Virus record (IMG/VR): IMGVR_UViG_3300034374_006741
Coordinates: 1 to 21,042 of that record
Origin: a virus
Length of the DNA stretch: 21,042 bases
Strand: one strand, 5' to 3'
A program made the position numbers and the translations under genes. Of the stretch, positions 3,975 through 20,796 are shown one piece after another; the first letter of the stretch is position 1, and each line of letters begins with the position of its first letter. The notes under the pieces were generated by a model. It did not search any database, was not told the origin of the DNA, and saw only the letters and a program-made list of their open reading frames with translations.

Positions 3975-6411
3975 TTTGAGTCAGGTTTCTGATTATCTCT
4001 TTTGTGTTGTCTTGTAAAAGCTCACCTCTTTGGTCTTTTCTCTGGCTCATAAGTTTTGACTGAGCCACGGCCTGCTTATCTACCCTTTCGTCCTTTCTGT
4101 CCTCTTTGAGAACCTCGATCTTTTGCTTAAACTCCTGGTCGTCGGTCTTGAATCCGAGGGTGGCCTGGGCCTTAATCATCTCGATTTCCTTCTTGAACTC
4201 GTGAAGCGCCTGTGCAACCTGAATGTCTGCCTGAGCCTTAGCTTGAATCTTTTGCATCTCAAGCTGCGACTCCATCTGTAGCTCCTGCTGTCTCGCCTGA
4301 GAAGCCTGTTGAGCTGCCTGCTGAGCTTGCTGAGCTTGCATTTGAGAGTTTTGCTGAGCGATCTGCTGCTGCCTCTGCTGCTTCTTAGTGCGCCTAAGAG
4401 ACAGAAGCCTCTCTGCTTGCTCTACATCCTTAAGCTCCCTAACCGCCATTGCGTCTTCGAGGTCAATGGCCTGCTGCTGAAGAGACATTTGAATAGACTG
4501 CTCAAGGAACTGTCTTTCTCTGTCGTCCATGTTCTTCATGACGGTAACGCCAAAGTTGAACATAGGAAGGTTTTCAAACGAAGAAATAACATTCATGTTT
4601 GACTTGCCAACCGCATTGGCGTATGCGTCAAAAATAACCGACTCCTTTGGAAGCACTTGAAGGCACTTTACAACGTCTTCGCAAACGCTTTGGAACAGAA
4701 TTATAGAAGCATTGGTTATGTCGTAAATAGCGTTGTTTCCTGCGGCTATAGCCTGCTCCCGAACGCCAACCAATGCGTCTCCCTTGGGTGTAGAGGCGTC
4801 CATAGCCTCGTTTACACCCGTGACATCCCTGATCATGCGCATGTAGTGATTGTACAGGTTGACCAGCTCATTGATGTTGCGGATACTGTTTCCGATCTCT
4901 CTGATAGGAGGGTTCTGGAATCCACCCTCTGGGTTTTTGCTTCTGTAGTAGAAGACACCAGTCTGCTCATAGATGTCGTGAAGCTCAAGGGGCTGAAGCT
5001 CTCCTCCCTTTCCGAGCTGAACGTTTTCCAGTCCCTCGATGTCAATAATCAATCCGTCTGGCTTTGCTTTAGCGATAGCCTGCTGGATTTTAAGGTGGGT
5101 GAGCTGAAGCATGTCGGCAAAACCCTTGGTGCTGCCGATCATTGACTTCGGAACCATGTCGTCAAGATTCGTTGCTACGGCAGAGTAAGACATGCGCGTT
5201 CTGCTGAGATCGTGCATGTTTCTTGGCATGTTGGTCTTTATGCCGTAGTCAAAAAGGTACCCGCAGCCCATCACATAGATGCCCCCGTAAACATTCATGA
5301 CGTCAAGAGAGTGAGGTGTTCTTTCATAAACACCGCCCTTTCTCTCCTTGTAGTTGTACCCCCTCACATAGAAGCCAACATTTCCGTACTTGTTCTCCCT
5401 TTCTTCGAAGTACATTCTGTCTGTAGAGAGAAACTCAAAGTCGAGAATCTCAACAATGTACTCGTCATAGCCATAAACCGTTCTTCTGGCCTGATTGTCG
5501 TAATAAGTTCTTCTTAGGGCTGATGCGTCGTTTCCGTGCTTAGATGCAGACTTTTCTGCAATCTTCTCAATCTGCTCTTCAGTGAGTTTGTCGCCAGCAA
5601 GCCTCTTGAGCTCTGAAATGGAGATTCTTCTTACGGCGCCAGCGTAGCTTATATCACCAAAGTTTGGGTCCTCTGTGTAGCTGTGAACAAAGTCTTTCGG
5701 ATCGATGTAGTCAATCGAAATGCCGTATGATGGGTCGTTAATTCTCTTTACGACACACATTCCGCAAGAAACCAAGTCTGAAACTGCTCTCCTGAATGTT
5801 GTTTCGTTGAACTTGTTCCAGGTAAGAGTTGCTTGTGTTGCGAGCTGAGCGGCGACCTCAGCATCGAGCTTTACGTTTGTCCCCAAGAAGATTTCGGCTT
5901 CTTCGAGGGTTTCTGGAATACTCTCTGGGTCCTCGTTAACTACAATGCCGTGAGCCTTTTTTAGGTCCATCAGGAGTTGCCTGTTCTTGACAAGCATCTC
6001 GATTTTCTTTTTTTCCTTGTCCCTAAAGGAAGTAGAAAGAGGATCGATGGCCTCAATGTTCGGGTACATTTCCCGAGAAAGAACCTTGTTGGTTACGATT
6101 CTAGCAAACTTGGGCAGTACGGGGACAGGACTAAAGTCCAGATTCAAAAGGGTCCCGTCATTGTTGTTTGGATCGAGATTGTTCAGGAGTCTTTTGTAAA
6201 TGTCGACATCCTGGGTACCGTTTGCGTACTTCCTATTTCTGTGAAACTCCCTATTTCTTCTATTGATGGCAGAGTCGTCTGGAGAAGATCCATTCCACTG
6301 CGCCTCGATCGCTTTTGCGTAGGCCATTCCATATTCCTGACCAAGCTTTTCTTCTTGCGACGCTAGGGGGTTTGGAAAGGACTTGGACGCTTTAGTTGAG
6401 CTGCCGTACAT
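3958..6411 (-). CDS. Portal protein (817 aa)
   Basis: This is the head-vertex ring protein through which DNA is packed. Evidence is its place directly after the terminase, its size and its motifs. The core (about 1-640) contains PKFARIVTNKVLSREMYPNI, a clip/stem-like helical part, and IRDVTGVNEAMDASTPKGDA, then LVGVREQAIAAGNNAIYDIT, a segment common to large portals of Bacteroidota phages including crAss-like ones. The tail (about 640-817) is a long Gln-rich coiled coil with QQ and QAQ repeats, longer than in most portals. The frame also opens at a TTG (6,435), but that codon lies inside the TATATTTG promoter box, so I placed the start at the ATG at 6,409-6,411. Tail morphology cannot be decided from this alone. 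Confidence 0.88.
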   Translation of the reverse strand: MYGSSTKASKSFPNPLASQEEKLGQEYGMAYAKAIEAQWNGSSPDDSAINRRNREFHRNRKYANGTQDVDIYKRLLNNLDPNNNDGTLLNLDFSPVPVLPKFARIVTNKVLSREMYPNIEAIDPLSTSFRDKEKKKIEMLVKNRQLLMDLKKAHGIVVNEDPESIPETLEEAEIFLGTNVKLDAEVAAQLATQATLTWNKFNETTFRRAVSDLVSCGMCVVKRINDPSYGISIDYIDPKDFVHSYTEDPNFGDISYAGAVRRISISELKRLAGDKLTEEQIEKIAEKSASKHGNDASALRRTYYDNQARRTVYGYDEYIVEILDFEFLSTDRMYFEERENKYGNVGFYVRGYNYKERKGGVYERTPHSLDVMNVYGGIYVMGCGYLFDYGIKTNMPRNMHDLSRTRMSYSAVATNLDDMVPKSMIGSTKGFADMLQLTHLKIQQAIAKAKPDGLIIDIEGLENVQLGKGGELQPLELHDIYEQTGVFYYRSKNPEGGFQNPPIREIGNSIRNINELVNLYNHYMRMIRDVTGVNEAMDASTPKGDALVGVREQAIAAGNNAIYDITNASIILFQSVCEDVVKCLQVLPKESVIFDAYANAVGKSNMNVISSFENLPMFNFGVTVMKNMDDRERQFLEQSIQMSLQQQAIDLEDAMAVRELKDVEQAERLLSLRRTKKQQRQQQIAQQNSQMQAQQAQQAAQQASQARQQELQMESQLEMQKIQAKAQADIQVAQALHEFKKEIEMIKAQATLGFKTDDQEFKQKIEVLKEDRKDERVDKQAVAQSKLMSQRKDQRGELLQDNTKEIIRNLTQNGNRT

Positions 6412-8736: not shown

Positions 8737-8756
8737 GATGATAGTGAATTGTATTG

Positions 8757-8830
8757 TACGCCTGACAGGATTCGAACCTGTGACCGTTTGCTTAGAAGGC
8801 AAATGCTCTATCCAGCTGAGCTACAGGCGC
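8757..8830 (-). tRNA. tRNA-Arg (anticodon TCT)
   Basis: Read on the minus strand, all four arms can be drawn. Acceptor GCGCCTG pairs with CAGGCGT (first pair G-T wobble). The D stem is GCTC/GAGC with a 9-nt loop. The anticodon stem is TTTGC/GCAAA with loop CTTCTAA, giving anticodon TCT, which reads AGA (Arg). The T stem is ACAGG/CCTGT with loop TTCGAAT. The discriminator base is A and no CCA is encoded, so it must be added after transcription. It sits in the leftward operon between two small genes, with only 5 bp to the stop upstream. Confidence 0.93.
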
Positions 8831-9667: not shown

Positions 9668-10244
9668 AGAAAATATCAGTGTAGTCGACGCGGTAATACT
9701 CTACATCGTCGATTTTGAATCGGTAATCCATGTTCTTCTTGAAGCCCACGACATCTCCAACTTCAAGGCCAAGCTCCTTGGTCTTCTCAGACTCAAATGA
9801 TACTATCCCCTTTGTGACTGGGTCCTCCTTGAGCTTTACAACCTCGATGACATCGGATAGCTTTTCCTCCTCTTGTTCTAGAGGGGAGAGCACGACCCAC
9901 CCTCCAAGCGGATGCACCTCACCAGTCTCTTTCGACTTGTAAGCGATAGCTTGGTTGTTCACCACTGAAATGCTTGGCGGACAATATCTTACGAGGTAGT
10001 TGTTGTCCTCGCCAGTAAGAACCTGACCCTCATTCAGTACTACTAGGTGATGGAAGTAGAGAGTGTCTCCTGGCTGTGCGCCAGTGTCATACTTAAAAGG
10101 CACAGCAACCAAAGGGCCAGCATTAACGCGATGCTTAAACTCGTTGAAGCGGTTGTCCACATAGAGCTCAAGGCCTGACGAAGTCTTGATAGTATCATTG
10201 ATCTGCTTTTCGAGCTCAACGACAAATAGGTCGAACGTTCTCAT
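9639..10244 (-). CDS. GroES-like co-chaperonin with two tandem domains (201 aa)
   Basis: The second half (about 113-196) matches the GroES pattern: GGWVVLSPLEQEEEKLSDVI (first strand plus mobile-loop region), KGIVSF, LEVGDVVGFKKNMDYRFKID, then EYYRVDYTDIFYVEE. The first half (about 3-95) follows the same order more loosely: FDLFVVELEKQ, GPLVAVPFKYDTGAQPGDTL with YFHH, and NNYLVRYCPPSISVV. GroES is normally ~95 residues with a single domain, so this looks like a tandem double-domain co-chaperonin. Phage co-chaperonins (T4 gp31 is the classic case) replace host GroES on GroEL so that the capsid protein can fold. A similar role is inferred. Starts at ATG, 4 bp after the 79-aa gene. Confidence 0.72.
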   Translation of the reverse strand: MRTFDLFVVELEKQINDTIKTSSGLELYVDNRFNEFKHRVNAGPLVAVPFKYDTGAQPGDTLYFHHLVVLNEGQVLTGEDNNYLVRYCPPSISVVNNQAIAYKSKETGEVHPLGGWVVLSPLEQEEEKLSDVIEVVKLKEDPVTKGIVSFESEKTKELGLEVGDVVGFKKNMDYRFKIDDVEYYRVDYTDIFYVEEEVHHA

Positions 10245-10804: not shown

Positions 10805-11257
10805 ATGCCTAAAAGTTCCGTATCCAAAAAGAAGCTCTTTCGAGACTTCTCCCGACTCCATCAAAGGTACGTAAAAAAGAACTACCTAAAGCACCTTCGA
10901 TCCGTCACCAATGACTTCTGCAGAAGGTACGACATCTTTGAAAAAGAGCTTCAGTTCATGTTGTGGGCCTACGACCTAGAGTTTTGGACTTTGGCTTACG
11001 CGGCCAAGGATTACAACTACAACAAAAAGAAGCTTGGCGAACGCATTGTATATGAGTTAGTTAACAATGGTTACGTGTACAAACACTTTGATAGACTAAC
11101 CCCGTCAGACACGCTAGAGGATCATTTATTCAGGGACGAAACGAAGTACAACTACAGGGTTAGGTATGCCCTTACCCAAAAAGCAAGGCTTCTCGTCCAG
11201 ACATATTACCGCTGTCTAGAAGACGCTGGTACTTCCTCGGATGCACCGCAATCTTGA
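10805..11257 (+). CDS. Winged-helix (MarR-like) regulator (150 aa)
   Basis: A 150-residue basic protein starting MPKSSVSKKKLFRDFSRLHQ. After a basic N-terminus (1-45), residues 46-90 hold a helical core (KELQFMLWAYDLEFWTLAY, then KKLGERIVYELVNNGYV), followed by a wing-like part and a final helix YALTQKARLLVQTYYRCL. The order of helix, recognition helix with LxxLxxxGYV, wing (YRVRYALT) and helix is that of MarR-type winged helices, so DNA binding is likely. It lies against the direction of all its neighbours, starts 9 bp from a divergent gene and overlaps the sulfotransferase-like gene tail-to-tail by 86 bp. A regulator of the late leftward genes is a fair guess. Confidence 0.68.
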   Translation: MPKSSVSKKKLFRDFSRLHQRYVKKNYLKHLRSVTNDFCRRYDIFEKELQFMLWAYDLEFWTLAYAAKDYNYNKKKLGERIVYELVNNGYVYKHFDRLTPSDTLEDHLFRDETKYNYRVRYALTQKARLLVQTYYRCLEDAGTSSDAPQS

Positions 11258-11756
11258 ATCGATCCATGTATTCGAACTTTTGGCGGCTGAACCTGTAGCC
11301 AAGGCCTATGTGCTTGACTATATCCTCAATCCTTAGATCGATGTCATCATAGTCAACTTCTAGCACGTTTGTAAAAAGAGACCGAACGCCTTCAAGCTCT
11401 ATGAGGGCCTGAGAAATTATCTCCCCGTACTGGAACGGGAAAGCCTCGCCTACTCCGCTCGGGAATTCTTTTTTAAGAGACTCGATAACTTCTAGGGGGT
11501 CCCTATTTATGATCACTATCGGTGAGTCTCCGTAAGAGTTATAAAAGTCTTTAGCCCACAGGGGGAAGCTGGAGTCAACGCCACCAATCGCCCCAAGAAC
11601 ACCTGGCCACAAATCACTGGGAAGGGTACCGTTCATGATTCTAATACCAGGCTCGTGCTCACAGCAAGACATGGTGTTGAGGTAGTGAGCCAGCCAAGCC
11701 CCGCGAGTGCGAGGCAAACCAGTCACGAAAAATGACTGTCGTTCAAAATTTTCCAT
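11172..11756 (-). CDS. Sulfotransferase-like P-loop protein (194 aa)
   Basis: A 194-residue protein starting MENFERQSFFVTGLPRTRGA. The motif TGLPRTRGAWLAHYL (12-26) matches the 5'-phosphosulfate-binding loop of sulfotransferases. PIVIINRDPLEVIESL (79-94) matches the 3'-phosphate-binding motif with its R-D-P-x-x-V-x-S-like order. Such enzymes move sulfate from PAPS to a hydroxyl or amine. It is shorter than typical cellular sulfotransferases (about 250-300 aa), so it may be a minimal form or a related P-loop enzyme. The last ~28 codons overlap the winged-helix gene on the other strand. Its place among virion genes suggests modification of a virion or surface glycan, which is inference. Confidence 0.6.
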   Translation of the reverse strand: MENFERQSFFVTGLPRTRGAWLAHYLNTMSCCEHEPGIRIMNGTLPSDLWPGVLGAIGGVDSSFPLWAKDFYNSYGDSPIVIINRDPLEVIESLKKEFPSGVGEAFPFQYGEIISQALIELEGVRSLFTNVLEVDYDDIDLRIEDIVKHIGLGYRFSRQKFEYMDRFKIAVHPRKYQRLLDSGNMSGREALLFG

Positions 11757-16709: not shown

Positions 16710-17004
16710 CCGATTCTTTCCTTTACATCCTCCAACAGTAATGAGGCCATTTTTGTCTTAATCACAATGACTTCGCGAAGTTATAAAACATTTTTTTAAA
16801 AGTCAACCGTCAAGTAAATGTTCATGTAACGTCGCTTACGGTTTTGATAATGAGTAAGTTAGAGTATTTTACCTGTCTAATGGCAAATGAGAGACCGAAT
16901 CGAGATCAGTCGTAAAAAGGGGTGAGATATGTACACCGTGGGGATTATATACATACACACGCGCCCGCAAACGCAATCCGAAACGGATTGCCAGCACCTC
17001 CCCC

Positions 17005-17025
17005 CTGCACTTTAGTGCAGTTTTT
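17005..17025 (+). terminator. Terminator-like hairpin with T-run
   Basis: Stem CTGCACT/AGTGCAG with a 2-nt loop is followed by TTTTT. On the plus strand this is the shape of a short intrinsic terminator, yet no rightward gene lies upstream. It may attenuate a leader transcript or be only one of the many hairpins here. Confidence 0.35.
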
Positions 17026-17365
17026 GCTACAACTTTCAGCTTTTTGCCTGACTTTCAGTCAGTTAGCCTTGGTTAGTTCAAGCACAGCTTGAGACTAACT
17101 TCGCAGGCGTGTTGCCCTGAAAGGGAGGACAATCCCCCTTGTAACTCACTGAGTTACAAACATTCCCCTTCAATGGGGTTTTGCTGTTGACATTCCAACA
17201 CTCTGTGTTGCAGTTGTTTCGGTTTGTTATTGCAATTTCAAACGGCAGAATACTTGTATTCTGAAATCTTGCTAATGCACAGAGGCAGTACCCTAGGAGT
17301 CAACTAGTTGACCGTTGGTACCACGACCTTTACTCTAACTAGTTAGAGTACTTCTGGCCAAGGTA

Positions 17366-17419
17366 GAGATATGTATTAGAAAGAATGAATTCTATGAATT
17401 CTTTCTAATACATTATCTC
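17366..17419 (+). repeat. Long hairpin just upstream of the first rightward gene
   Basis: Arms GTATTAGAAAGAAT (17,373-17,386) and ATTCTTTCTAATAC (17,398-17,411) pair fully, extend by two more pairs, and after a one-base bulge by five more (GAGAT/ATCTC). The 11-nt loop holds GAATTC. It ends 15 bp before the ATG of the Lys/Ala-rich gene, so it would lie in that mRNA's leader. Confidence 0.7.
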
Positions 17420-17434
17420 ATAAACCATTTTGTG

Positions 17435-17944
17435 ATGTCAAACTTCCAATTTTCCGACTGCAAGAAAGCGGTCAACCAAGCCCTCTTCCGTCCAACCGCT
17501 GAGCGTAAGGCCGCCGCAATCAAAGCTTTGCAAGAAGCTTTGGACATGGTCACTTCCTTAGAGGAAGTGAAAGACAAGCCGAAGGCTTCCAAGACGAAGA
17601 AGCGTCGTCGTAAGACGACGAAGCGGACACCTTCACAGAAGGTGGCAGATGCTCAAGACCGAGCCGCTCTCAAGACCAACGAAGTTGGTCCAATCAAGCC
17701 TTCTTCGAAGGCTCGGAAGGCCGACGTAGCCAAAGCCGCTGCTTCCGCTAAAGCGGTCAGCGTGGCCACTGGCGCAGCAGCTAAAGCTGCCAAGAAAGCT
17801 CAGCTGAAAGCTGAAGCTGAGACGGCTGACAAAGTAGCTTCCTTGGAAGCTAAGATTGAGGCCTTGACGCAGTGCCTGGCTCTGCACATGGAGACTACGT
17901 CTCTGCCTCCTGCTAACGAAGTTAGCACTGACGTTCCATTCTAA
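17435..17944 (+). CDS. Lys/Ala-rich histone-H1-like protein in hairpin-rich coding sequence (169 aa)
   Basis: A 169-residue protein starting MSNFQFSDCKKAVNQALF (ATG at 17,435; a GTG one codon earlier is possible). The N-terminal ~50 residues look helical. A very basic part (SKTKKRRRKTTKRTPSQKV, about 50-68) and an Ala/Lys-rich part (KADVAKAAASAKAV, AAAKAAKKAQLKAEAE, about 97-132) follow. Last comes a short coiled coil (KVASLEAKIEALTQCLALHM) and an acidic end. This composition fits histone-H1-like DNA-compacting proteins known in bacteria and phages, but similarity by composition alone is weak. It is the first rightward gene. Oddly, the DNA holds at least a dozen perfect hairpins, listed separately. 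Confidence 0.72.
   Translation: MSNFQFSDCKKAVNQALFRPTAERKAAAIKALQEALDMVTSLEEVKDKPKASKTKKRRRKTTKRTPSQKVADAQDRAALKTNEVGPIKPSSKARKADVAKAAASAKAVSVATGAAAKAAKKAQLKAEAETADKVASLEAKIEALTQCLALHMETTSLPPANEVSTDVPF
17521..17926 (+). repeat. Hairpin array within coding sequence
   Basis: Perfect stems within the 169-aa gene: CAAAGCTT/AAGCTTTG (17,521-17,542), TCACTTCCT/AGGAAGTGA (17,550-17,570), CGTCGTC/GACGACG (17,603-17,620), CACCTTC/GAAGGTG (17,628-17,644), GACCAAC/GTTGGTC (17,674-17,690), AGCCTTC/GAAGGCT (17,697-17,713), CCGCT/AGCGG (17,745-17,756), GCAGCT/AGCTGC (17,777-17,790), TCAGCT/AGCTGA (17,800-17,814), TAGCTTCC/GGAAGCTA (17,835-17,852), GAGAC/GTCTC (17,891-17,903) and TGCTAAC/GTTAGCA (17,911-17,927). 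Loops are mostly 2-4 nt. One more, TTCATC/GATGAA (17,947-17,961), holds the next start codon. Low complexity of the protein may explain some of them, but not the perfect pairing. Confidence 0.75.
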
Positions 17945-17956
17945 TCTTCATCTACG

Positions 17957-18070: not shown

Positions 18071-18087
18071 ACCCCTTAGAGGTCTTT

Positions 18088-18130
18088 GTATATACACTCT
18101 CTCTGAACGTAGTGAAGAGAGTGTATATAC
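18088..18130 (+). repeat. Large hairpin with conserved loop, copy 1
   Basis: A 15-bp perfect stem (GTATATACACTCTCT with its complement at 18,116-18,130) closes a 13-nt loop CTGAACGTAGTGA. An outer GTCTT/AAGAC stem continues it. There is no T-run after it. It lies between the 37-aa gene and the next gene group. Confidence 0.85.
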
Positions 18131-18156
18131 TAAGACACTCTTGGAAACGTTAAACC

Positions 18157-18170
18157 TTCAAACTTCAATC
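18157..18170 (+). promoter_or_regulatory. Leader motif TTCAAACTTCAATC, copy 1
   Basis: TTCAAACTTCAATC ends 2 bp before the ATG at 18,173. It recurs almost unchanged before several group-opening genes on this strand. It could be a translation-initiation element or a binding site. Confidence 0.6.
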
Positions 18171-18172
18171 TC

Positions 18173-18313
18173 ATGGATAAGCACATCCGCCGTCAGCTCA
18201 TCGCTGACCTCCTCGACAGCCATCTCCCTATGGACATCCTCGCCAACACAGCGGCGTGGGACGAACTCACCTGCGACGAGCAGATGACGTTGGCTGACCT
18301 CATCGACAGCTAA
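18173..18313 (+). CDS. Small acidic protein (46 aa)
   Basis: An ATG at 18,173 directly after the leader motif opens a 46-residue frame with a TAA stop. It starts MDKHIRRQLIADLLDSHLPM and ends QMTLADLIDS. It is mostly helical and acidic, with repeated (A)DL(L/I)DS at both ends, so it could form a small helical hairpin. No membrane segment. The family is not recognised; it stands alone between copy 1 of the large hairpin and a smaller hairpin. Confidence 0.55.
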   Translation: MDKHIRRQLIADLLDSHLPMDILANTAAWDELTCDEQMTLADLIDS

Positions 18314-18342
18314 GGCATACTGATGAGCGCTGAATGCGCGAA

Positions 18343-18360
18343 ACACCACGAAAGTGGTGT
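18343..18360 (+). repeat. Small perfect hairpin between genes
   Basis: ACACCAC (18,343-18,349), loop GAAA (a GNRA-type tetraloop) and GTGGTGT (18,354-18,360). It sits directly before the second leader motif, in the place where other gene groups have the large hairpin. Confidence 0.6.
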
Positions 18361-18365
18361 CTATG

Positions 18366-18379
18366 TCAAACTTCAATTC
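18366..18379 (+). promoter_or_regulatory. Leader motif, copy 2
   Basis: TCAAACTTCAATTC ends 7 bp before the ATG at 18,387, the same distance as in copy 5. An in-frame ATG lies just before the motif (18,363), but equal spacing with copy 5 favours 18,387. Confidence 0.5.
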
Positions 18380-18386
18380 ATCTACG

Positions 18387-18761
18387 ATGACCAAACTTCA
18401 AGAACTATACTTCACCATCCAAGGGTGGGACGGGTTCAGCGTCAAGCACGACCTGAACGAGTACGGAGGCGGTGGTTACGCTGTGGGCGGAGCGTCCAAG
18501 TGCTTTGAAATCAAAGCCGACGACCTGTCTTGGAACCACTTTGCCTACATCATCATGCCCCACTTGCGTGAGCTGACACGGGGCAAGGGTGCAAGCAAGC
18601 TCATCGGCGGATGGGTGGATGCGCAAGGGATGGCCTACCTCGAACTCTCCGACATCGTGCAAGACCGCACGGAGGCAATCAAGCTGGGATGGATGCGCAG
18701 TGAGAAAGCCATCTACGACCTCAACAACAACGAAGAAATCGAAATACCAACAAACCTATGA
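18387..18761 (+). CDS. Phage protein of unknown function (124 aa)
   Basis: A 124-residue protein starting MTKLQELYFTIQGWDGFSVK; a start 24 bp earlier is possible. The middle has GGGGYAVGGASKCFEIKADD. The C-terminal half reads GGWVDAQGMAYLELSDIVQD, RTEAIKLGWMRSEKAIYDLN. That order (GGWxD...xxYL(D/E)xSxxVxDxxEA...xxxxAI(F/Y)DL) is one I associate with small phage proteins of unknown role found in many tailed phages. Its stop overlaps the next ATG (ATGA), so translation is coupled. No catalytic motif is clear. Confidence 0.72.
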   Translation: MTKLQELYFTIQGWDGFSVKHDLNEYGGGGYAVGGASKCFEIKADDLSWNHFAYIIMPHLRELTRGKGASKLIGGWVDAQGMAYLELSDIVQDRTEAIKLGWMRSEKAIYDLNNNEEIEIPTNL

Positions 18762-19000
18762 TTAATATTTGGGACAAATATCCAAAGCAAGGCACTCACT
18801 TCGAGGCCATGCAAGACAAGGTGAAACAGCACACTTGGACGTACTACACGTACTACGGGCGCGATCGAGATGATTGGTCAGGTCCGCACACCATCAAGGC
18901 ATCCACTCGTGAAGAGGCCATCCGTAAGGCGCAGTTCGAATGGATGGGCACTGGACAGACAGTGTGGAACTCCAAGATGAAACTCGTTGACAATCAGTAA
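18758..19000 (+). CDS. Small protein of unknown function (80 aa)
   Basis: An 80-residue protein starting MINIWDKYPKQGTHFEAMQD. It overlaps the 124-aa gene by 4 bp (ATGA). It is rich in Trp and Tyr (TWTYYTYYGRDRDDWSGPHT), followed by IKASTREEAIRKAQFEWMGT. That last stretch, strand-turn-helix with REEAIRKAQ, resembles short alpha/beta phage proteins. No Cys or membrane segment. The family is not recognised. It ends the second group, 8 bp before leader copy 3. Confidence 0.65.
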   Translation: MINIWDKYPKQGTHFEAMQDKVKQHTWTYYTYYGRDRDDWSGPHTIKASTREEAIRKAQFEWMGTGQTVWNSKMKLVDNQ

Positions 19001-19008
19001 ATTAACCC

Positions 19009-19022
19009 TTCAAACTTCAATC
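19009..19022 (+). promoter_or_regulatory. Leader motif TTCAAACTTCAATC, copy 3
   Basis: An identical 14-mer to copy 1, ending 1 bp before the ATG at 19,024. The preceding bases (AACCC) also resemble copy 1 (AACC). Confidence 0.6.
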
Positions 19023-19023
19023 T

Positions 19024-19146
19024 ATGGTACAACTACTATTCAACATCAACCTCGCGTTGGCGGGAGCCTGCGGACTCGTAGGCATCATCATGCTTGTAGG
19101 CATGGCAATGGACGCTGTTAGTAACTTGAAAGACAAGCAGTTATGA
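19024..19146 (+). CDS. Single-membrane-segment micro-protein (40 aa)
   Basis: An ATG straight after leader copy 3 opens a 40-residue frame. It reads MVQLLFNINLALAGACGLVG, then IIMLVGMAMDAVSNLKDKQ. Residues ~4-30 are hydrophobic, enough for one membrane span, with a basic cytoplasmic-type tail. The stop overlaps the next start (ATGA). Function unknown. A membrane-active phage factor (lysis control, superinfection exclusion or host takeover) is possible but not shown. Confidence 0.55.
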   Translation: MVQLLFNINLALAGACGLVGIIMLVGMAMDAVSNLKDKQL

Positions 19147-19331
19147 GAAGCTACTTCAACAAATTCTTCAACCCATTCCGTGGGTGCTCACACGAGGAAC
19201 TGGTGCTTGCGTACCTGTTCATGAGCGACGAGTACGACCACGAAGGTGTGGCTCTCGTAGCTGAGGCATACGATGAAGATACTTTCATTGACCTCAGAGA
19301 GTTCGGCATCTCAACTCGGGACTTCCAATAA
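19143..19331 (+). CDS. Small acidic protein (62 aa)
   Basis: A 62-residue protein starting MRSYFNKFFNPFRGCSHEEL, then VLAYLFMSDEYDHEGVALVA and EAYDEDTFIDLREFGISTRD. A short basic/aromatic start is followed by an acidic helical body. The ATG is inside the stop of the 40-aa membrane gene, so the two are made together and may act together. It ends 11 bp before copy 2 of the large hairpin. The family is not recognised. Confidence 0.62.
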   Translation: MRSYFNKFFNPFRGCSHEELVLAYLFMSDEYDHEGVALVAEAYDEDTFIDLREFGISTRDFQ

Positions 19332-19341
19332 GAGAGTGTTA

Positions 19342-19384
19342 GTATATATACTCTCTCTGAACGTAGTGAAGAGAGTATATATAC
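19342..19384 (+). repeat. Large hairpin with conserved loop, copy 2
   Basis: A 15-bp perfect stem (GTATATATACTCTCT with its complement) and the same 13-nt loop CTGAACGTAGTGA (19,357-19,369). Compared with copy 1, one C-G pair is a T-A pair, changed on both arms. Flanks GTGTT/AACAC and GAGAG/CTCTC extend the stem past a bulge. No T-run follows. Confidence 0.85.
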
Positions 19385-19399
19385 AACACCTCTCAAATG

Positions 19400-19413
19400 T
19401 TAAACTTCAAATC
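19400..19413 (+). promoter_or_regulatory. Leader motif variant TTAAACTTCAAATC, copy 4
   Basis: Two changes from copy 1 (C to A, and one inserted A late in the motif). It ends 9 bp before the ATG at 19,423 and lies 15 bp after the hairpin copy 2. Confidence 0.5.
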
Positions 19414-19422
19414 TCCAACACC

Positions 19423-19701
19423 ATGGACAACTTCTTTAAGCGCCCCGTCGGTGCAGCTGTGCTTGCACTCAATGACCTCCACTTCGGAAAGCATCTCAAT
19501 GACCTCAATCGGTGTGCTCGGCTTGTGCCCGAGGACGTGAAAGGCATGGCCTCTCTCATCTCCAACACCACATTCATGAGCGACGACGCGAAGGATGCGG
19601 TGATTGACACGCTGATTTCGTTCGCTGACACAGCCGAGCAACTCCAAGAGAAGTTGCTCAATGACATCATCGTGGACTCCGAAGATGTAGACCAATGCTG
19701 A
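19423..19701 (+). CDS. Small helical protein (92 aa)
   Basis: A 92-residue protein starting MDNFFKRPVGAAVLALNDLH. The frame is open further upstream through the hairpin and leader, but the ATG at 19,423 follows leader copy 4, so I chose it. It is mostly helical, with acidic residues towards the end (DTLISFADTAEQLQEKLLND, then IIVDSEDVDQC). No membrane segment or known motif. It heads a group of five overlapping genes. Function unknown. Confidence 0.65.
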   Translation: MDNFFKRPVGAAVLALNDLHFGKHLNDLNRCARLVPEDVKGMASLISNTTFMSDDAKDAVIDTLISFADTAEQLQEKLLNDIIVDSEDVDQC

Positions 19702-19799
19702 CAGCCATTCAGATATACGCAGGGTGGAGCATGGTGCTCTCCTGCATACGACTCTTGCTCATCGAAACGTTGAACTACTACGAATCCAAAGCACAATGA
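19695..19799 (+). CDS. Single-membrane-segment micro-protein (34 aa)
   Basis: An ATG at 19,695 overlaps the end of the 92-aa gene by 7 bp and opens a 34-residue frame. It reads MLTAIQIYAGWSMVLSCIRL, then LLIETLNYYESKAQ. Residues ~2-24 are hydrophobic enough for a membrane helix, interrupted by one Arg. Its stop overlaps the next ATG. It is the third tiny membrane-type protein on this strand. Its reality rests on the tight overlaps on both sides. Confidence 0.45.
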   Translation: MLTAIQIYAGWSMVLSCIRLLLIETLNYYESKAQ

Positions 19800-20110
19800 A
19801 ATTCACAGACTCCTTCAAGACCACACTCCCCTTCGTGTCAATGCGGACAGCATACGACGTAGACCTTGACGCCGCGAAGAACGTTGAGATGGACACCTCC
19901 ATCGGGATTGACCCCAACCATCAGTATGGTGGATGGTACGAAACATACGACCTTGACACAGGCGGTGACCGCTTCTATGCAGGCGGTGTGCTCGAAGTGT
20001 ACTGGGATGACAACGGAGAGGTACGCCTCACGGGGTACGATGGATGCTTCGAACTCCCTGAATATATCATCGAAGCCCTTGAAAAGAAGGGCGTAATCAT
20101 TGACCTATGA
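19796..20110 (+). CDS. Protein of unknown function (104 aa)
   Basis: A 104-residue acidic protein starting MKFTDSFKTTLPFVSMRTAY. The ATG overlaps the stop of the 34-aa gene; a longer upstream form would run through that gene. It has a beta-rich look: GGWYETYDLDTGGDRFYAGG, then VLEVYWDDNGEVRLTGYDGC, and a C-terminal helix ELPEYIIEALEKKGVIIDL. No catalytic motif is seen. The next gene starts inside its stop (ATGA). The family is not recognised. Confidence 0.68.
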   Translation: MKFTDSFKTTLPFVSMRTAYDVDLDAAKNVEMDTSIGIDPNHQYGGWYETYDLDTGGDRFYAGGVLEVYWDDNGEVRLTGYDGCFELPEYIIEALEKKGVIIDL

Positions 20111-20301
20111 CACAAGACAAATGCGAACGTGCAGTCGAGATACTGCGAGAGCAAGGCTTTGAAGCCTCCTATGTACAGGGGGCACCTGACGACCACGGAG
20201 TGTGGTTGGACTGCGTATGGAACGAGTCCTTGCAGGAGGCATACAGCTTCCGCCTCCACGACGAAGAAATCGAATACTATTCAAACGAATCCAAGGCATG
20301 A
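20107..20301 (+). CDS. Small protein of unknown function (64 aa)
   Basis: A 64-residue protein starting MTQDKCERAVEILREQGFEA. A first helix (2-17) is followed by strands (SYVQGAPDDHGVWLDCVWNE) and an acidic end (HDEEIEYYSNESKA). The helix-strand-strand layout is compact, with two Cys. It is coupled by ATGA overlaps to genes on both sides, and its start MTQ is also that of the next gene. The family is unknown. Confidence 0.65.
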   Translation: MTQDKCERAVEILREQGFEASYVQGAPDDHGVWLDCVWNESLQEAYSFRLHDEEIEYYSNESKA

Positions 20302-20444
20302 CACAAGCAGAACGACTCGACAACCGCACGAAGAACTGCGGGAGCTTCGAACTACACCTCATCCGAGCGTGGTTCAAGGCCGACAACATCAACAAGAAGA
20401 TTCTCGAAGAGGCCTTCGAGGGTACGATGTTCAACCTCAAATAG
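20298..20444 (+). CDS. Small protein of unknown function (48 aa)
   Basis: A 48-residue protein with an ATG overlapping the previous stop (ATGA). It begins MTQAERLDNRTKNCGSFELH, then LIRAWFKADNINKKILEEAF, and ends EGTMFNLK. It is probably a helix-turn-helix-sized bundle, but no clear DNA-binding motif is seen. It closes the third group; hairpin copy 3 starts 9 bp later. Function unknown. Confidence 0.6.
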   Translation: MTQAERLDNRTKNCGSFELHLIRAWFKADNINKKILEEAFEGTMFNLK

Positions 20445-20453
20445 AGAGTGTTA

Positions 20454-20494
20454 GTATATATCTCTCTCTGAACGTAGTGAAGAGAGATATATAC
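20454..20494 (+). repeat. Large hairpin with conserved loop, copy 3
   Basis: A 14-bp perfect stem (GTATATATCTCTCT with its complement) and the unchanged loop CTGAACGTAGTGA (20,468-20,480). Relative to copy 2, one base pair is lost from both arms at the same level. Flanks GTGTT/AACAC and GAGAG/CTCTC match copy 2. Confidence 0.85.
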
Positions 20495-20513
20495 AACACC
20501 TCTCAATAACAAA

Positions 20514-20528
20514 TTCAAACTTCAATTC
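20514..20528 (+). promoter_or_regulatory. Leader motif TTCAAACTTCAATTC, copy 5
   Basis: It ends 7 bp before the ATG at 20,536 and follows hairpin copy 3 by 19 bp, the same order as copies 1 and 4. Confidence 0.6.
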
Positions 20529-20535
20529 AATACCA

Positions 20536-20796
20536 ATGGACAACATCAAAGACATGACGAACGACGAGTTCATCAGCCACCTCATGACGGGGTACAACAA
20601 GCACGGGGCACTCGTGCAGATGGTGGTCATCGACTGCCTCCAACGTGGTCTTGACCACTACATCTCACACAAGGAACAAATCCTTGAGGAGCACAACAAG
20701 TCCCGTGAAGATGGGCGTATCTCCCTCATCAACATGGAGGCGTGGGTCTCCTGCTGTGAAGACACACAACAACGAATCCAAGACAAGTACTCATGA
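20536..20796 (+). CDS. Small protein of unknown function (86 aa)
   Basis: An 86-residue protein starting MDNIKDMTNDEFISHLMTGY. It is helical: KHGALVQMVVIDCLQRGLDH, YISHKEQILEEHNKSREDGR, then ISLINMEAWVSCCEDTQQRI. It resembles small phage proteins of the type that start DNMTDEEFxxHLMxxS(K)xGAL(M/A)QxFVxxAL, which are common and uncharacterised in tailed phages. No enzyme motif. It heads the fourth group; its stop overlaps the next ATG (ATGA). Confidence 0.7.
   Translation: MDNIKDMTNDEFISHLMTGYNKHGALVQMVVIDCLQRGLDHYISHKEQILEEHNKSREDGRISLINMEAWVSCCEDTQQRIQDKYS

Follow-up and report, generated by a model that had tools for sequence, protein, structure and literature searches.

At the boundaries of small early genes in a lineage of uncultured phages, long hairpins, hammerhead ribozymes and tRNA-like structures replace one another. 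This mutual replacement at the same boundaries suggests that every one of these element types serves to divide a single long message into messages for separate genes. The phages have genomes of ~60-65 kb, probably infect Bacteroidota, and are distant kin of the Flavobacterium 'elemo' phages and the Pachyviridae. The hairpin family is large and falls within this one lineage. Neither the family nor its exchange with ribozymes appears to have been described before. The features of the stretch of viral DNA that we analysed (21,042 nt, hereafter the window) are collected in Table 1.

Table 1. Boundary elements, leaders and genes of the small-gene block in the window.
Feature	Coordinates	Strand	Details	Source
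Slot 0 long hairpin	17371..17413	+	ATGTATTAGAAAGAAT-GAATTCTATGA-ATTCTTTCTAATACAT; 5′ of first + strand gene	unbiased hairpin scan, slot table
First ORF of small-gene block	17435..17944	+	169 aa; conserved in relatives
Type A boundary hairpin 1	18078..18141	+	inner stem 18088-18102/18116-18130; cap GAACGTAGTGA 18105-18115; outer GTCTT/AAGAC and AGAG/CTCT
Leader	18158..18168	+	TCAAACTTCAA before ATG 18173	sequence, leader list
Small ORF	18173..18313	+	46 aa; stop codon directly abuts hammerhead
Hammerhead ribozyme, stem I open-ended	18314..18367	+	stem I GGCATA/TATGTC; core CTGATGA; stem II GCGC/GCGC; GAA; stem III ACACCAC/GTGGTGT
Leader	18366..18376	+	TCAAACTTCAA before ATG 18387	sequence
Small gene 3′ of hammerhead	18387..18761	+		slot table
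Type A boundary hairpin 2	19332..19394	+	inner stem 19342-19356/19370-19384; outer GTGTT/AACAC and GAGA/TCTC
Gene 3′ of hairpin 2	19423..19701	+		slot table
Type A boundary hairpin 3	20444..20504	+	inner stem 20454-20467/20481-20494; overlaps TAG stop of preceding gene
Leader	20515..20525	+	TCAAACTTCAA before ATG 20536	sequence
Gene 3′ of hairpin 3	20536..20796	+		slot table

The + strand of the window contains three exact matches to CTGAACGTAGTGA (18103-18115, 19357-19369 and 20468-20480) and the other strand none, against a mean of 0.39 matches in shuffled sequence with 2 mismatches permitted. Each match lies in a hairpin, here termed type A, with an inner stem of 14-15 bp and outer stems of 5 and 4 bp, interrupted by single mismatches or bulges. 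The RNA folding z-scores on the + strand range from -6.7 to -7.0, and the three hairpins are far beyond chance. All start 1-8 nt from a stop codon and are followed by a leader and then an ATG, in keeping with an earlier note on this DNA that had placed them between the end of a gene group and a leader motif. The stem changes described there were also recovered on comparison: a C-G to T-A pair between copies 1 and 2, one full pair missing in copy 3, and covariation of the outer stem between GTCTT/AAGAC and GTGTT/AACAC. Moreover, relatives contain further copies and their stems compensate, the two points on which that note had staked its reading. Across type A stems 286 of 300 pairs are Watson-Crick, compared with a mean of 194 (maximum 240) when the arms were re-paired. 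A wobble strand test of the stems counted 3 G-T against 7 A-C cells, most of which reflect slipped registers. On each hairpin-matched contig all copies lie on one strand, the exception being one self-inverted contig. An Rfam search at the window hairpins returned chance-level matches only, none above the gathering score, and a literature search for the loop sequence or a sheared tandem GCGAAGC cap yielded nothing relevant.

The span 18088-20494 also contains a hammerhead, and a further long hairpin (slot 0) lies upstream of it, for which relatives carry other long hairpins instead. The 169-aa ORF that follows slot 0 has no family match. The hammerhead shows the consensus core CUGANGA...GAAA...UH as CTGATGA, GAA with A15.1, and U16.1 C17, and the RNA fold of the element agrees with the three-helix layout. 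The core is invariant in 32 distinct homologues bar C/T at the variable position, although the core was prescribed by the search pattern; a looser scan retrieved the same set. Compensatory changes were found in all three stems (stem II position 2, CG/TA/GC/AT; stem III position 3, AT/GC/CG/TA; stem I position 1, AT/TA), and the search gave 0 hits in a 4.9 Mb reversed control. Matches to Rfam models were below the gathering threshold, both in the window (RAGATH-1-hammerhead, 22.3 bits, GA 56.3) and in the relative L248 (Hammerhead_1, 25.5 bits, GA 34). This score is a detection threshold and not a defining chemical feature. The hammerheads of the lineage are minimal, with no clear loop-loop contacts, and a scan found none in the examined parts of the genomes of the isolated relatives phi13:2, elemoA and MW202828. 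From its sequence we assign the window element to the hammerheads, with self-cleavage predicted after C17 at 18361|18362.

Loci were collected via their flanking proteins and the slot upstream of each orthologous gene was scored in distinct relatives. These boundaries hold a type A hairpin, a differently capped one (type B) or a hammerhead, and in single relatives a tRNA-like element. The slot 5′ of the gene at 19423 is occupied by type A in 12 relatives, type B in 4 and a hammerhead in 2, whilst that 5′ of the gene at 18387 holds a hammerhead in 23, type A in 2, type B in 1 and a tRNA-like element in 1. Upstream of the gene at 20536 we found type A in 13 distinct relatives and a tRNA-like element in 1; elsewhere this gene is internal to a group, and genes within groups have almost no upstream elements. 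The order on the sense strand is stop codon, element, leader TCAAACTTCAA and next start codon. Among 129 distinct TCAAACTTCA leaders, 37 are preceded by type A, 32 by a hammerhead, 13 by type B and 12 by another long hairpin; some have no element, for example that at 19010 in the window. The tRNA-like elements, found 5′ of the leader in L006/L231 and L261, are rare and at or below the detection threshold (28.3 versus 29 bits). What is conserved is thus the boundary rather than any one sequence.

We consider it probable that the hairpins serve as RNA punctuation in a polycistronic sense transcript from the small-gene (early-type) region, cleaved most plausibly by RNase III. One long sense transcript would span this region. 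As happens in the T7 early region, a host enzyme, most likely RNase III, would cut each hairpin of ~24 bp with its compact cap, and every resulting mRNA would start close to its leader. A self-cleaving hammerhead would do this at further boundaries and would also, in relatives, take the place of the hairpin at the same ones, leaving an expected 5′-OH end at UAUGUCAAAC; the tRNA-like element of single relatives could be processed by RNase P/Z. RNA processing had been one of the options in the earlier note and is supported here because hammerheads of relatives fill the same boundary slots. The helix of T7-type RNase III signals, about two turns of dsRNA between cistrons, is present on the assumption of a single transcript. 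Sequence alone does not prove RNase III sites. What the analysis shows is the conserved slots, the element interchange, the sense orientation, the stem covariation and the intact hammerhead core; the single transcript, the cutting of the hairpins, the enzyme and the benefit of separate mRNAs are inferred.

Alternatively, hairpin and ribozyme could share a slot merely as insulators of the downstream leader. Left uncut, such hairpins would block exonucleases at 3′ ends and keep upstream ribosomes or RNA structure off the leader, a role that fits their very stable folds, the super-stable G-A cap and a position between a stop codon and a leader. However, this reading leaves the self-cleaving ribozyme in the same slot of relatives unexplained, unless insulation is a by-product of cleavage, and we regard it as unlikely.

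The cap itself raises a second alternative. An invariant loop of 13 nt had been proposed; it is identical in the three window copies, but it proved to be a structured G-A cap whose loop varies among relatives. We adopted a capped-stem model over an open loop after scanning for a stem with any loop, and on the same scan dropped the idea that a protein reads an open loop of 13 nt. The type A cap consists of the stem, a tandem G-A/G-A, two covarying pairs (AC/GT, GT/AC, AT/AT) and a small loop, its constant part being GAAC-NNA-GTGA. The leading CT of the 13-mer is an optional slip of the 5′ arm, absent or shortened in relatives. Among hairpins with a 2x2 mismatch, 49/50 have GA/GA and the inner pairs covary. 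The loops seen were GTA, GAA, AGA, ACA, ATA, CT, TT, CTT and TCTT, with the G-A tandem kept in most. A phage or host RNA-binding protein might read this tandem as a kink-turn-like motif with a 5′ slip, given that near-uniform GA/GA, a cap far more conserved than the stem and the 2-nt 5′ bulge that adjoins the G-A in the window copies. The cap conservation exceeds the needs of a bare RNase III substrate, and this counts against RNA punctuation by that enzyme. However, relatives have a bulge of 0, 1 or 2 nt, often none at all, short of the 3 nt that accompany tandem G-A in a kink-turn. Moreover, type B hairpins and hammerheads fill the same slots without the cap, and the analysis turned up no candidate protein. 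Because loops vary and hairpins with different caps share slots, it is unlikely that the common denominator is a strictly loop-specific binding protein. Recognition of the cap by a protein is, overall, quite improbable.

A role in transcription termination or attenuation between gene groups would suit hairpins placed immediately 3′ of stop codons. However, the stems are A+T-rich, none of the three window hairpins has a T-run, a terminator scan made no + strand call at these sites, and the hammerheads that occupy these slots are not terminators. We rejected intrinsic terminators for lack of both a U-run and a G+C-rich stem and of any scan call, in agreement with the earlier note, and consider termination or attenuation very improbable. 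A DNA-level element, either an operator or a hairpin promoter of the type used by the N4 virion RNA polymerase, would be in keeping with hairpins that head gene groups in an early-type region, and C-GNA-G triloops occur in N4-type DNA hairpin promoters. Operators, another option raised previously, are disfavoured because stem sequence shifts with pairing kept and the G-A cap can form on the sense strand alone. Moreover, ribozymes, which function solely as RNA, take the place of the hairpins; a promoter scan was at chance level; and no RNA polymerase was found among the large proteins of the genome (G004), where the 2618- and 1754-aa proteins lack DFDxD and no Pfam/PHROG polymerase match was obtained, a divergent polymerase being possible. 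We rejected a DNA site and judge this class extremely improbable. Almost no credence is given to functionless mobile REP/MITE-like repeats: CTGAACGTAGTGAAG does cap many unrelated stems, including those of dispersed repeats, in other viruses and bacteria, but the lineage copies are syntenic, in a single orientation at fixed orthologous boundaries with slot-specific flanks.

That hammerheads alternate with long hairpins, and singly with tRNA-like elements, at orthologous boundaries is comparative evidence for an mRNA-cutting job and offers a directly testable system. The role of hammerheads in phages and prokaryotes has been described as an open question (PMC6155905). Moreover, the hairpins, with their defined tandem G-A cap, form a family that is absent from Rfam. 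More tentatively, these boundaries may amount to a modular code in which unrelated cleavage devices (hammerheads, RNase-recognised G-A-capped hairpins and tRNA-like elements) are exchangeable before a common leader. Gene groups could then be portable self-processing cassettes, which suggests how phage genes can be shuffled with neither a promoter nor a terminator of their own.

Several known systems resemble the one described here. In tRNA punctuation, as in mitochondria, tRNA excision separates mRNAs; there too intergenic processing elements release messages, whereas tRNA-like elements are rare in this phage lineage. Super-stable hairpins of the GCGNAGC type, and dispersed bacterial repeats capped by CTGARCGNAGYGAAG, share the tandem G-A and triloop cap. 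These differ in having unrelated stems and contexts, whilst the phage copies sit at fixed gene boundaries. In the T7 early region, RNase III hairpins between early genes split the polycistronic transcript into mono- and dicistronic mRNAs (PMC4858673). The hairpins described here are similar in being long dsRNA stems with small internal mismatches, several of them between early genes. Unlike the T7 sites, with which they share no homology, they carry a tandem G-A cap, are mixed with or replaced by hammerheads, occur in phages of another host phylum, and are cleaved only by inference. Phage hammerhead arrays with a proposed processing role are already known: clustered phage and prophage hammerheads flank single genes or gene blocks, and processing of long transcripts was proposed for them (Perreault et al. 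2011, PMC3088659). The ribozymes described here likewise flank phage genes or gene blocks. They differ in belonging to an uncultured Bacteroidota-type lineage, in a minimal form that scores below Rfam thresholds, and in that long hairpins and tRNA-like elements can take their place at orthologous boundaries.

All three hairpins that an earlier note had placed at gene-group boundaries were confirmed in the window sequence (see table), as were the stem changes it had ascribed to them, namely C-G to T-A, the loss of one pair and GTCTT/AAGAC versus GTGTT/AACAC. Their RNA folding z-scores range from -6.7 to -7.0. The 13-nt loop CTGAACGTAGTGA occurs exactly three times in the window, each time on the + strand; allowing up to two mismatches, shuffled sequence gave a mean of 0.39. 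The loop had also been called invariant, which holds for the window's three copies, whereas across the family only a GAAC-NNA-GTGA core is constant, since a scan for the stem of these hairpins (type A) with any loop of 6-24 nt recovered, besides chance palindromes, CTGAACGTAGTGA (25), GAACAGAGTGA (12), GAACACAGTGA and GAACGTAGTGA. Moreover, the 23-mer CTCTCTGAACGTAGTGAAGAGAG was found in 35 IMG/VR stretches. Across 20 distinct type A hairpins, 286 of 300 pairs are Watson-Crick, whereas re-pairing arms among hairpins (2000 trials) gave 194 on average and never more than 240, an excess that comes partly from TATA-tract shifts and is therefore evidence of pairing, not a tally of independent events. 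Two otherwise different viral contigs (L010 and L032) share the same 23-mer hairpin core on unrelated outer stems. The related contigs come from metagenomes, and most are incomplete; one of them, L011 (IMGVR_UViG_3300006919_002226), is a perfect inverted self-duplication centred on position 4875 that probably arose during assembly.

Structured elements located in the window
Feature	Position	Strand	Location
Hairpin copy 1, inner stem and loop	18088-18130	+	
Hammerhead, complete core, stem I open	18314-18367	+	boundary upstream of 18387 gene
Hairpin copy 2, inner stem and loop	19342-19384	+	
Hairpin copy 3, inner stem and loop	20454-20494	+	

When hairpins were picked solely by their position upstream of the leader, the short motif before the next ATG, GA lay opposite GA in 49 of the 50 having a 2x2 internal mismatch. 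The two pairs above are AC/GT, GT/AC or AT/AT, and the loops GTA, GAA, AGA, ACA, ATA, CT, TT, CTT or TCTT. The cap is therefore a stem, a tandem G-A, two covarying pairs and a small loop, and it can form on the sense strand only. The extra CT of the window copies is a slip of 0-2 nt in the 5′ arm. In many other viruses (among loci L076-L177) the cap CTGAACGTAGTGAAG crowns perfect stems of unrelated sequence, and seven viral loci (L080, L081, L090, L096, L124, L129 and L142) carry a capped hairpin followed by short tandem repeats, e.g. TCTTCTCTTCTCTTC or GGTGTTGGTGTT. Dispersed repeats of the form TGTCACTCTGAACGTAGTGAAGAGTC occur in bacterial genomes (L178-L223), including Bacteroidota, Ignavibacteria and Bacillota MAGs.

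The window, a 21 kb virus record, encodes terminase and portal on the - strand; a gene for tRNA-Arg (TCT; 8756-8830, - strand) lies close upstream of the former. The window's block of small + strand genes begins at 17435. Terminase identity is 48.6% with the uncultured podovirus MW202828, falling to about 41% with Flavobacterium elemo phages, 40% with the Maribacter phage Panino and 38% with Cellulophaga phi13:2 (Pachyviridae); judged from these terminase relatives, the host is probably one of the Bacteroidota. In a 65,144-base relative (G004), five hairpin copies lie on one strand within about 4.2 kb of the small-gene region, given joined contig ends, and none outside it. The same relative encodes a 2618-aa protein (18927-26783, - strand) matching giant PHROGs without known function (phrog_14770, phrog_616, phrog_10691), in which no polymerase motif was recognised. 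Short perfect palindromes with small loops and 6-10 bp stems are very dense at window positions 16920-17950 (19.5 per kb in intergenic 16920-17432, 17.3 within the 17435-17944 gene, 1.5-3.2 elsewhere), and similar ones are visible in that gene's L011 homologue; they may be an origin, promoters or RNA structure.

The window's hammerhead reads CTGATGA-GCGC-TGAAT-GCGC-GAA-ACACCAC-GAAA-GTGGTGT-C between GGCATA/TATGTC, and its predicted fold matches expectation. Its top Rfam match is RAGATH-1-hammerhead at 22.3 bits, under the gathering score; one relative's element matches Hammerhead_1 at 25.5 bits. A pattern scan of related loci yielded 32 distinct copies with an invariant core and, in stems I-III, compensatory changes; stem I position 5 is a G-T pair in 30 of them, as expected for sense-strand RNA. 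Neither unrelated loci nor 4.9 Mb of reversed sequence gave any match to the strict pattern. A separate, independent scan, which looked for the ribozyme 3′ end plus leader, added 15 loci, 13 with hammerheads and one of these with four.

Hairpins and ribozymes interchange at orthologous boundaries. Loci were retrieved through the downstream-encoded proteins, blind to hairpins, and pooled with those previously collected. Counts are of distinct upstream sequences, not independent events. Of the sequences upstream of the 18387 gene, 23 hold a hammerhead and two hold type A (L224, L227); there is one case each of type B (a long hairpin with a different cap; L248), another hairpin (L158), a tRNA-like element (L231, scoring 28.3 bits where the threshold is 29) and a non-hammerhead structured element (L232); in two the gene is group-internal. 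Ahead of the 19423 gene stand type A (12), type B (4, cap CTTCATTTATGAAG) or a hammerhead (2), the remainder being mostly group-internal, and ahead of the 20536 gene type A (13) or, once, a tRNA-like sequence (L261). Group-internal genes have almost no element upstream. Element orders are mixed across 27 mapped loci, e.g. B, hammerhead, hammerhead, B, hammerhead in L035 and B, B, hammerhead, B, hammerhead, B in L248. The leader TCAAACTTCA, in 129 distinct cases, follows type A in 37, a hammerhead in 32, type B in 13 and another long hairpin in 12; several of the other 35 have imperfect hairpins or tRNA-like sequence. Such tRNA-like sequences lie directly upstream of leader or hairpin in L006 (about 11190-11285), L231 (2531-2626), L261 (before 4501) and L011 (near 9600), and ARAGORN called no tRNA at these four. 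The structured element of L232/L053 (about 9930-10020) shares its 3′ end, GGTGTCTGTATCAAACTT, with the hammerheads; it is without the hammerhead core and has only a chance-level Rfam match.

A ribozyme works only as RNA, and by cutting. Its occurrence in the hairpins' place, ahead of a common leader, argues that the hairpins also work in RNA and that the two would share one outcome, parting the upstream from the downstream message. The main rival is that the hairpins stay uncut and serve in insulation or stabilisation. We prefer the reading that host RNase III would cut them at gene-group boundaries, given the shared slots, the duplex length, the T7 precedent and the role proposed for phage hammerheads. 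Bacterial RNase III uses a duplex of the length that these hairpins offer. In the T7 early transcript, five such sites are cut to give mono- and dicistronic mRNAs (PMC4858673), and a 2011 paper proposed this role for phage hammerheads beside gene blocks (PMC3088659); a 2017 review still termed the prokaryotic hammerhead role open (PMC6155905). The G-A-capped family is absent from Rfam and from the literature searched, where hairpin/ribozyme interchange at orthologous boundaries was likewise not found; T7 RNase III sites and prophage hammerhead arrays are already known.
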